DNA of 40,911 bases, taken from positions 1 through 40,911 of the forward strand of contig JAPLSN010000040.1 of the NCBI GenBank assembly GCA_026398615.1, written 5' to 3'. This document shows, piece after piece, positions 35,694-38,878 of this stretch. This DNA is from Spirochaetota bacterium (lineage in GTDB: Bacteria > Spirochaetota > Spirochaetia > Treponematales > UBA12059). The position numbers were made by a program, and so were the translations under genes. Under the pieces are notes generated by a model. The model had not been told where the DNA came from, made no database searches, and saw nothing but the letters and a program-made list of their open reading frames with translations. The stretch's first letter is position 1. Every line of letters begins with the position of its first letter.

Positions 35694-36209
35694 TCAGGCG
35701 CCCCCTCGGTTGCGCGGGGGCGTTTTTTTCGCGTCATCGGCAGCCGGTTGCTTTGCCTCAGCCGTCGATTTCTGCCATCCGGACCCCGACAGCATCACTT
35801 CGTCCATGTGCCTGAGCCGGCGCGAAAGGTCGCGGGCGAGATTCATGATCATGAGGGCGAATGTCCTGATCTCCAGGTGGTAGATCTCATGGATGGCATG
35901 GTTGGAGATCGTCGCGACCCTTGTATGAACAAGCGCTTTTACAGTGGCTGCGGACGGCATGACATCGAGCAGTTCCATCTCGCCGAAAGCGTCGCCTTCG
36001 GCGAACTCGACGAGGCGGATGCCGAGCCGGGAGACTTCCACGCGGCCTTCCAGGATGAACTGGATGCGATCATTGGATTCGCCTTCCCTCATGATCGTTT
36101 CGCCCTCATCGAAGGACGCGTACTCGAGGAGGGGCTTGATGCGTTCGATTTCCTCGGGGAGCATCCCGCCGAAAAGGGAATATTTCTGGAGGGCTGCGCT
36201 ATCGACCAT
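35694..36209 (-). CDS. Single cyclic-nucleotide-binding domain protein
   Basis: A 171-residue protein with one CRP-type cNMP-binding domain (about 8-125): LFGGMLPEEIERI, FDEGETIMREGESNDRIQFILEGRVEV, and the ligand-pocket strand GDAFGEMELLDVMPSAATVKAL. In CRP the pocket is GExALxxxxPRxAT; here E is kept but R is replaced (PSAAT), so nucleotide binding is doubtful. There is no DNA-binding domain; the C-terminus is a helix (LARDLSRRLRHMDEVM) and a Lys/Pro-rich tail. Its ATG overlaps the stop of the membrane protein upstream (TGATG), so both are made together and may interact. The last codons coincide with the gltX terminator. Confidence 0.85.
   Translation of the reverse strand: MVDSAALQKYSLFGGMLPEEIERIKPLLEYASFDEGETIMREGESNDRIQFILEGRVEVSRLGIRLVEFAEGDAFGEMELLDVMPSAATVKALVHTRVATISNHAIHEIYHLEIRTFALMIMNLARDLSRRLRHMDEVMLSGSGWQKSTAEAKQPAADDAKKTPPRNRGGA
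35698..35729 (+). terminator. gltX intrinsic terminator, inside the convergent gene
   Basis: CGCCCCC (35699-35705) pairs with GGGGGCG (35716-35722), then seven T (35723-35729). The hairpin overlaps the final codons of the cNMP-binding gene on the other strand. Confidence 0.9.
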
Positions 36210-37996
36210 CAGGGGGCATCCCTGAGCAGGCGATCGATGTCGAGCTTCCATCGTCCGTCGCGCCAGGCAGCGGCACGCTCGAGAGGCCCCGAGAAGACGG
36301 AGTGCAAATCCATGAATTCGAGCTCGATGAGTTCCCTCCCCGTCATGGATACGTCGACTTTGTCAAATTGGAGCTTGAGTCCGAGATTCTCGCCGAGGCC
36401 TTCCTTCGCTTCGAACATCCATGGGTTTTCGCCGTACAGCGGCTTGCCGTCGGTCCCGAGCAGCTGGATGCGAACAGGTGCCGCACCGGGATTCTTCACA
36501 TACAGCGCTCCTTCGCCGCCGAGCAGCTCCGGAACGATTTCCATGAGCCAGGATCCGGACTTCCTCCAGACGGCGGCCTTCGCCATCGGGTGAAGGCGCC
36601 GCGATCCGCCCTGCATGACGATCTCGACGCGTTGCGCGGCCGATACCTGGAGGGGTCCGCTCGCCCCGACGTTGAGCCATTTCCCGCTTGGATCGCCGGC
36701 TCCCTCGAGCGCGCCGAAACTCCACGACGTATCATGGAGCGCCGAACCGTCCGGCTCGAGGACGCGGAATGTGACCGGGTTCCTTGTCAGGTTGCGCACG
36801 TACAACCTGCCTGTCCCGCCCATCCCAGTGGACGGTGGCGGCGGCGTTCGCTCGATCGCCAACAGCCATTCCGAGCCGTCCCAGCGCGGATACCGTTCTT
36901 CTCCGTTCCGGAGCACCAGCCCCTCAGAGGCGATACGCAGGACGGCAAGGTCGGCGCCACGCGTGGCCTTGAACGCGGCATCCCCGATGACGAGCTCGAT
37001 ATCCTTGCCAGTTTCGTTCCCTTCGAAATCCCAGGAATTTTCGCCGATGACGATCCTGAACGCTTCGCTTGCCGGGTTCATGTCGATCGCACCGGTCCTG
37101 GAAGCGTCGAATATGCCGCCTTCCTCGAACAACCCTCTCGTGGCGAAAAAAACTCCCGCTGAAAACGACAGGACGGCGAACAAGGCCAGCAGGACCGCAC
37201 GGCTGCCGTGCTTTCCCAGCCGGGAACTGGCGGTTCGCCCCTGGGATCGTACGAGGATACTGTCCGGATCGTCCAGCACATCGTTCCCCTGCAGGACGAA
37301 TCCGCCCGAATCGTTTCGCGCTGTCCCGAATACCTGTACTTCATCGCCGGGTAACAGCGCGATCTCCCTGACGCGGATCTGGGTCGTTTTCCTTTCATCA
37401 TGACCGTCGATTCCGAGAGCGTCTCTGGCGAGCCGTCCCAGCACCGGCAGCTTCGACCGGAGCGTGCCCATGCTGAAAACCCGTTCGGTCCAGCCGGACG
37501 AATCGATGATCCCGGGACCGGACAGTCGCGCGATACCCGTGTCATCGCGCACGGAGATGCCGCTCCAGTATGAATCCACGGTTACCGTCGGGCCGGGTCC
37601 CTTTCCCAATCCTTCGAGGATCTCCGCTTCGATGCGGTAGGCCAGGCTATCCCTTCCGGACAACGGAGCGGCCTTGACGGGATCGCCCGATACTATTCCT
37701 GCGATCGACGCATGGAGTGAAACGCCTCGCATGATTCCGTTCCCGGAGAGCGCCGATTCGATATCCTGGATGGAATACCGTTCATGGCCGCTGAACTCTC
37801 TCAGGTCCGAAAGCCTTTTCCTGTACCGGGTTTTCCCGTACGCCACGACCGCTTCGATGCCGAGATGGGCCGCTGCCGCGATGAGGAGGATGGCCGGGAT
37901 CCAGGACGCGTCGTCCCCGGATCCGAGAATAAAGAAGCCAAGGGCCAAGGCGGCAGCGGCGGCGTTCACCAGCTTGAAGACATTCCTGAGCCTCAT
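36209..37996 (-). CDS. Membrane protein with GIDE/BAM-like domain and two tandem ~100-residue repeats
   Basis: A 595-residue protein of unknown function. Two N-terminal membrane helices lie at about 7-27 and 31-53 and another at about 266-286. Between them, residues 100-250 resemble the GIDE/BAM domain of MULAN-like proteins: DPVKAAPLSGRDSLAYRIE, SVRDDTGIARL, and IALLPGDEVQVFGTA. There is no RING finger. After the third helix come repeats of about 100 residues, 397-487 and 497-587, sharing LYV(R/K)N, PV, DG, W-F-A-EG-G, VS, A-AAWR-G-W-L-I; a degenerate earlier copy may cover about 312-381. The start ATG 37996 has GGGAGG 6 bases upstream. TGATG overlap with the cNMP-binding gene follows. Assignment to the GIDE family is by pattern only. 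Confidence 0.8.
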   Translation of the reverse strand: MRLRNVFKLVNAAAAALALGFFILGSGDDASWIPAILLIAAAAHLGIEAVVAYGKTRYRKRLSDLREFSGHERYSIQDIESALSGNGIMRGVSLHASIAGIVSGDPVKAAPLSGRDSLAYRIEAEILEGLGKGPGPTVTVDSYWSGISVRDDTGIARLSGPGIIDSSGWTERVFSMGTLRSKLPVLGRLARDALGIDGHDERKTTQIRVREIALLPGDEVQVFGTARNDSGGFVLQGNDVLDDPDSILVRSQGRTASSRLGKHGSRAVLLALFAVLSFSAGVFFATRGLFEEGGIFDASRTGAIDMNPASEAFRIVIGENSWDFEGNETGKDIELVIGDAAFKATRGADLAVLRIASEGLVLRNGEERYPRWDGSEWLLAIERTPPPPSTGMGGTGRLYVRNLTRNPVTFRVLEPDGSALHDTSWSFGALEGAGDPSGKWLNVGASGPLQVSAAQRVEIVMQGGSRRLHPMAKAAVWRKSGSWLMEIVPELLGGEGALYVKNPGAAPVRIQLLGTDGKPLYGENPWMFEAKEGLGENLGLKLQFDKVDVSMTGRELIELEFMDLHSVFSGPLERAAAWRDGRWKLDIDRLLRDAP

Positions 37997-38072: not shown

Positions 38073-38522
38073 TCAGGTACCGCAACAGTTCCGCTTCCAG
38101 ACCGCTCCCAGCAGGAAAAGCGTCATGAGTGGATCAGTCGAGATCCAGAGCACGCCGGATCCCGACCCGCCGCCGGCCAGGGTCAGGCAGTAGTCGAAGG
38201 CGAATATGACCGCGCAGTCGAAGATGCTGCCCGCGATGAGACGCTTCGTATAGCGGATGAAGATGAAATTGACGAAAACGACGGCACTTGCGACGGCGCA
38301 GGCCGACGGACAGGCGGAACGTCCGGCTTCTATCTTGAAGGGAATCCCGATGATGGGAACGCCCGCGGGCCACGATGCCGATGATGGCGCAGATGTCCCA
38401 CTCGCAGGGACGGTCGCGGTCCGGAGGTAGGGGTTGAGGTACCCCGGATCCTCCCCGGGCATGTCGCGGAAAACCCCGACCGTGGATTCGATGAGCGGCT
38501 CGATGCGCGCGATATCCATCAT
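38073..38522 (-). pseudogene. Chimeric remnant: CheX-like N-terminus joined to a membrane-protein-like C-terminus
   Basis: The open frame is 149 residues. Its start resembles CheX, the CheY-P phosphatase: IARIEPLIESTVGVFRDM. The next CheX-like motif, WDICAIIGIVARG, occurs in the -1 shifted frame (around 38380-38420), with strongly coding third positions there, and the main frame resumes with VPIIGIPFKIEAG. The remaining C-terminus does not look like CheX but has three hydrophobic segments (VVFVNFIFI, LIAGSIFDCAVIFAF, LMTLFLLGAV) with GC-rich third positions. A good Shine-Dalgarno (GGAGG) is kept at the start. It overlaps the cheY remnant by 4 bases. The simplest reading is frameshifts plus a deletion fusing two genes; a misread pair of bases in the assembly is the alternative. 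Confidence 0.5.
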
Positions 38523-38665
38523 TCCTCCAGGTAACGGTATTCGATGATCCTGAAGGCTTCGGCCCCGTCGGCGGCTTCCAGGTAGGCTGCATCGGCGTAT
38601 TTCGGTTCCTTGACGAGCGCGTTCTTGATGATGTTCCGCATGATTCGGGAGTCATCGACAACCAG
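38519..38665 (-). pseudogene. Truncated CheY-like receiver remnant
   Basis: About 48 codons encode the first two-fifths of a chemotaxis response regulator: LVVDDSRIMRNIIKNAL with the acidic pair, then YLEAADGAEAFRII. It stops before the phospho-acceptor aspartate region and so cannot be phosphorylated. No ATG, GTG or TTG starts this frame near the motif; the only nearby ATG (minus strand, about 38682) is in another frame. The end overlaps the cheX-like remnant as ATGA, suggesting the two came from an intact cheY-cheX operon. Confidence 0.7.
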
Positions 38666-38776
38666 TATTGTAACTTCAGCATAACAGATACCGATTTCTG
38701 GGGCAAGCCTCGAGCGGGCCGCGCCCGCATCAGTGCATCCGCGTACCGAGGCTAGTTCCCCGCGGAACCTTTCCGG

Positions 38777-38782
38777 TATACT
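38777..38782 (+). promoter_or_regulatory. Possible glyS -10 element
   Basis: TATACT stands alone; no convincing -35 box is 16-18 bases upstream. The leader of about 90 bases to glyS contains a small CCTCC/GGAGG hairpin (38842-38858) and then AAGGAG at the normal place. Confidence 0.3.
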
Positions 38783-38878
38783 CCCAGCGTGTCGGGAGCA
38801 TCTTTCCAGCGGAAGCGAGTTCCCGGCGACACCCCACCGAGCCTCCACGCCACGGAGGTACCGTCAAGGAGACCCAAG

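Follow-up and report, generated by a model that had tools for sequence, protein, structure and literature searches.

The window, a stretch of 40,911 nucleotides from a Spirochaetota bacterium, encodes a protein of 595 residues that we read, with a probability of about one half, as a rare protein of the cell envelope whose domains are arranged in a new way and whose gene shares an operon with a conserved neighbour only in this lineage. It would belong to a very rare spirochaetal family and span the inner membrane with three helices, with a divergent GIDE/BAM-type domain between helices 2 and 3, on the cytoplasmic side. Helix 3 would be followed by an ectodomain on the outer (periplasmic) side, made of three tandem beta-sandwich-like repeats. 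From this layout alone we infer that the protein most likely serves as a sensor or scaffold that faces the envelope: its repeats would bind to something there, and the GIDE-like part would act at the inner membrane face. The gene immediately downstream, which encodes a lone domain of the cyclic-nucleotide-binding (cNMP) type, would have joined the operon with the membrane gene in this lineage only, its expression being supplied by that operon. The anatomy of the membrane protein, its homology to GIDE, its repeats, its rarity and the absence of a conserved linkage with the downstream gene are established by the comparisons that follow.

The open reading frame of the membrane protein has no internal stop (Table 1), and the motif GGGAGG lies immediately upstream of its ATG. 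It is truly coding, since only in frame 0 does its codon usage match that of the genome (0.184; -0.021 and -0.129 in the other two frames) and since it has a full-length relative. Its stop codon has one base in common with the start codon of the cNMP-type gene on the same strand (TGATG, in the context ...CCCCTGATGGTC), an overlap already reported from the letters alone and confirmed here. The ATG of the downstream gene is the correct start because its orthologs start in the same way (MVD/MID...LQKYSLFGG). The earlier statement that the two proteins are made together goes further than the sequence does: given the overlap, the two genes are likely to be co-transcribed and translationally coupled, and no more can be read from it. 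The flanking genes are gltX, glyS and those for a chorismate mutase, a HIT protein and a poly(A)-polymerase-type protein; there is no cyclase among them. Upstream of the membrane protein gene, positions 38073-38848 of the minus strand look like a decayed operon. A response-regulator receiver at 38519-38848 matches the first 39 of 111 Pfam positions only (E 0.0016-0.005) and then stops. The open reading frame after it (38073-38522, minus strand) matches no family, has a CheX-like start by eye only, and may be the debris of a partner gene.

Table 1. Positions in the window of the two overlapping genes and of the parts of the membrane protein; residues are those of the 595-residue protein.
Feature	Positions	Strand	Details
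GIDE-like membrane protein gene, 595 aa	36209..37996	minus	TM1 6-24, TM2 33-51, GIDE-like ~84-250, TM3 267-285, repeats 291-589
GIDE-like region, residues ~84-250	37247..37747	minus	hhalign with shuffle control; predicted cytoplasmic
Repeat copy 1, residues 291-383, degenerate	36848..37126	minus	z = 7.8 vs copy 3; not significant vs copy 2
Repeat copy 2, residues 394-489	36530..36817	minus	z = 17.5 vs copy 3
Repeat copy 3, residues 494-589	36230..36517	minus	repeat comparison; predicted beta sandwich
Downstream gene, 171 aa, lone cyclic-nucleotide-binding-type domain	35694..36211 (codons 36209-35694)	minus	PF00027 E 7.3e-15

Relatives of the membrane protein are very rare. None was found among the 22 other genomes of the family, and the ~395 genomes of the class contain a single one (JAFGWI010000273.1, from a Spirochaetales MAG), which is full-length, is 23% identical over 532 columns, and has its helices, GIDE-like part and repeats in the same order; its gene is flanked by metH-type and carB-type genes (named by eye). 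Profile searches of the phylum and of the relative's own order gave no further relative, and none was found in viral contigs, plasmids or phages. Two pattern-based contig scans, the only searches to reach into other phyla, returned no relative beyond that of the Spirochaetales MAG, and distant relatives may exist beyond the phylum. Comparison of the protein with Pfam, NCBIfam, PHROGs, PADLOC and the sequences of the PDB gave nothing significant. Three sets of candidates were rejected. A match to the repeat profile elsewhere in the same genome (contig C38, E 7e-4) runs antisense to an ATPase-like gene, and we attribute it to chance; a weak match in another genome (E 0.01) lies inside what by eye is an ABC-transporter permease-like gene; and the divergent membrane proteins of 597-626 residues encoded beside some cNMP-type orthologs are S26-peptidase-like in the two that were scanned and were not counted as relatives.

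The hydropathy of the protein confirms the two N-terminal helices and the third helix after the GIDE-like segment that the sequence-only reading had described, the second and the third helix lying on either side of the GIDE-like domain. The positive-inside rule allows the two sides of the membrane to be assigned from the charges that flank such helices. There are 2 KR and 0 DE in the N-terminal flank, 0 KR and 2 DE in the loop between helices 1 and 2, 6 KR and 1 DE after helix 2, and 4 KR and 0 DE before helix 3. Under the rule, this pattern predicts that the GIDE-like part is in the cytoplasm and that the repeats are on the outer (periplasmic) side. The relative has 7 KR and 1 DE after its second helix, in agreement with this pattern, and, less clearly, 4 KR and 3 DE before its third; the argument is weaker for this protein because its third helix is followed by 3 KR and 0 DE.

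The segment between helices 2 and 3 had been noted as resembling the BAM/GIDE domain, and profile-profile comparison bears this out. From 11 canonical bacterial GIDE proteins of the same class we built a profile and compared it, using hhalign, with the 595-residue protein and its relative; the probability was 93.2% and the E-value 2.9e-7 over 171 co-linear columns. The score of this match (51.5) is far above those of 200 column shuffles of the query region (mean 13.6, standard deviation 2.4, maximum 21.0), of the reversed region (11.6) and of the repeat region (12.4). When the 595-residue protein was used alone as a query against the genomes, it matched one canonical GIDE protein of another genome (E 0.002), which itself scores 132 bits on PF12483. 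The profile match, so far above its controls, and the independent match to a canonical protein make the homology with GIDE convincing, but the segment is divergent. The Pfam GIDE model (PF12483) has no match up to E 5 in either the protein or its relative, and the TREYEE motif and the cysteine of bacterial GIDE proteins are absent at the aligned place (R90, E93, E94 and C81 are invariant across the 11 bacterial members). We label the region GIDE-like and do not assign it to the PF12483 family. A profile search of the PDB with the GIDE alignment gave no match. The same genome encodes an ordinary bacterial GIDE protein on another contig (C31:11208-11702), which scores 119 bits on PF12483.

Such divergence could mean that the GIDE-like part is a remnant without GIDE function and that the protein serves to anchor the repeat ectodomain, for example in envelope or cell-wall binding. 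The loss of the TREYEE motif and the cysteine and the lack of any score with Pfam GIDE are what one would expect of a remnant, and the N-terminal half is 24% identical to that of the relative. However, the core pattern (PL..., D-x-x-G, ...E...G-x-A) is kept in order across the whole domain, and the match is stronger once the 23%-identical relative is added (with the relative left out, hhalign aligns 54 columns with an E-value of 0.003), which argues for some constraint on the domain. We regard the remnant as unlikely, although it deserves to be weighed seriously.

The C-terminal part of the protein, after helix 3, consists of three tandem repeats. Two clear copies had been seen by eye and a degenerate one suspected before them, and the comparison of the copies upholds both points: none of 500 shuffles reached the score of copy 2 against copy 3 or that of copy 1 against copy 3 (z-scores in Table 1), and the latter makes the degenerate copy real. 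Direct comparison of copies 1 and 2 was not significant (58 of 500 shuffles). Copy 3 was modelled with AlphaFold2, with four repeats as the alignment and five models. The best of these has a pLDDT of 76.5 and a pTM of 0.70, with pLDDT values ranging from 76.5 down to 45 among the five, and because of this wide spread the evidence for a beta sandwich is moderate. The closest solved structures are the beta domain of pVHL (Z 6.5, 78 residues, 3.2 A) and the ectodomain of PepT2 (Z 6.2), all Z-scores being below 8, and the Foldseek match of the repeat model (E 0.027) is below significance, so that these likenesses may reflect merely the common beta-sandwich arrangement. Matches of this kind, below significance, are no proof that the fold of the repeat is new. 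The repeat alignment had no match in a profile search of the PDB. A full-length AlphaFold2 model of the protein, built with two sequences, had a pLDDT of 35 and was not used.

The protein encoded downstream belongs to a family with a history of its own. It scores 55.2 bits on PF00027 (cut-off 27.5), and shares this score and the FGE motif with other proteins that consist of a lone cyclic-nucleotide-binding domain, but differs from PF00027 systems in having neither the phosphate-binding arginine nor a DNA-binding or other effector domain. Its pocket reads FGEMELLDVMPSAATV, with a serine (PSAAT) in place of the phosphate-binding arginine of PR(A/S)AT(V). The loss of this arginine had been remarked on for this one protein and holds, as a trait of the whole family and not of this pair: it is missing in 36 of the 37 orthologs read, the sole exception being the ortholog of the MAG that carries the other membrane protein. 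FGEMEL and the C-terminal MNLARDLSRRLRRMDE are strongly conserved in the family. Orthologs that are 50-60% identical occur in 18 genomes of the bacterial family, and matches below E 1e-14 occur, one per genome, in 67 of the 395 genomes of the class (17%) and in 37 of its 134 genera. The distribution and the motifs indicate an old family that is conserved independently of the 595-residue protein and that probably reads no cyclic nucleotide in the usual way. Its surroundings vary. In many members of the bacterial family, a gene for a radical-SAM protein of ~830 residues comes next after the cNMP-type gene (Radical_SAM and Radical_SAM_N2 in the one that was scanned), and in several genomes of a neighbouring family (4 orthologs) it lies after the gene of a YchF-type GTPase, called from the start of the protein, directly or one gene away.

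The overlap of the two genes had suggested a functional pair, in which a membrane protein works with a cNMP-type partner. The neighbourhood search finds no conservation of such a pair, an outcome that the earlier reading had itself named as a refutation; it counts against the pair and leaves the anatomy of the membrane protein unaffected. We looked at the genes around 36 cNMP-type orthologs from outside the window, and none of these orthologs follows a gene like that of the 595-residue protein (0 of 36); their neighbours include radical-SAM, YchF-like, S26-like and GGDEF or EAL genes, among others. In the only other carrier of the membrane protein, the Spirochaetales MAG (a draft assembly), the two genes are on different contigs, and the cNMP-type gene is directly preceded by genes of other kinds. 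The pair is thus not conserved. The downstream family is present in both carriers of the membrane protein, although only 17% of the genomes of the class have it (a probability of ~0.03 if genomes are taken as independent), and this co-occurrence is a weak hint of a link between the two proteins. A sensor-partner pair may exist in this one lineage, but the comparison lends it no support.

The two proteins could nevertheless form a lineage-specific signalling pair, in which the repeats sense the state of the envelope and the GIDE-like part relays it to the cNMP-type protein, acting as an adaptor that is free of ligand or binds another one. The one-base overlap on the same strand, the predicted cytoplasmic location of the GIDE-like part, where the partner would sit, and the presence of the partner gene somewhere in both carriers are consistent with this possibility. 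However, the genes are linked nowhere else (neither in the 36 orthologs nor in the only other carrier), and dozens of genera have the partner family but lack the membrane protein, so we hold such signalling to be rather improbable. The full chain, a new transmembrane signalling pair of one spirochaete lineage in which a three-repeat envelope sensor signals, by way of a GIDE domain in the cytoplasm, to an old adaptor of the cNMP type that works without a ligand, is more doubtful still; if true, it would provide a functional assignment for a bacterial GIDE domain. The earlier remark that no described system with this pair is known agrees with the literature accessible to our search, in which we found no paper describing one. 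That the genes form a Pycsar-type defence or conflict module, with a cNMP-binding domain and a membrane effector, we find very hard to credit: the downstream protein does match Pycsar effector models (E 4.8e-13), but this score stems from the generic cNMP-binding fold, the adjoining genes include no cyclase, the pocket arginine is missing, and the family is kept across genera at a stable single copy in each genome, unlike a defence gene.

What sets the proposed envelope protein apart is best seen against the known proteins with a domain of this type. Like bacterial GIDE/BAM proteins (PF12483), it has a GIDE-like domain between transmembrane helices. However, the canonical bacterial members that we found are of ~260-275 residues and consist of no more than the domain and a single helix on either side of it, whereas the 595-residue protein has two helices before the domain and three repeats after it. 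Human MAPL/MULAN (BAM-RING) also has a BAM/GIDE-type domain flanked by helices (PMC4457424); unlike it, the spirochaetal protein has no RING and no Pfam hit over the cut-off, and its C-terminal half is made of the three repeats. The BAM domain of MAPL faces the intermembrane space, whereas the GIDE-like domain described here is predicted to be cytoplasmic, and what the conserved function of the domain might be, from bacteria to human MAPL, has been described as an open question (PMC4457424). In the literature accessible to our search, we found no function for a bacterial GIDE domain. The fusion of a GIDE-type domain to an ectodomain in a bacterium thus offers a handle, as the ligand of the repeats would show what the domain reports on. 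The downstream family, widespread and with its pocket arginine nearly always lost, is perhaps a more interesting question than the membrane protein itself.
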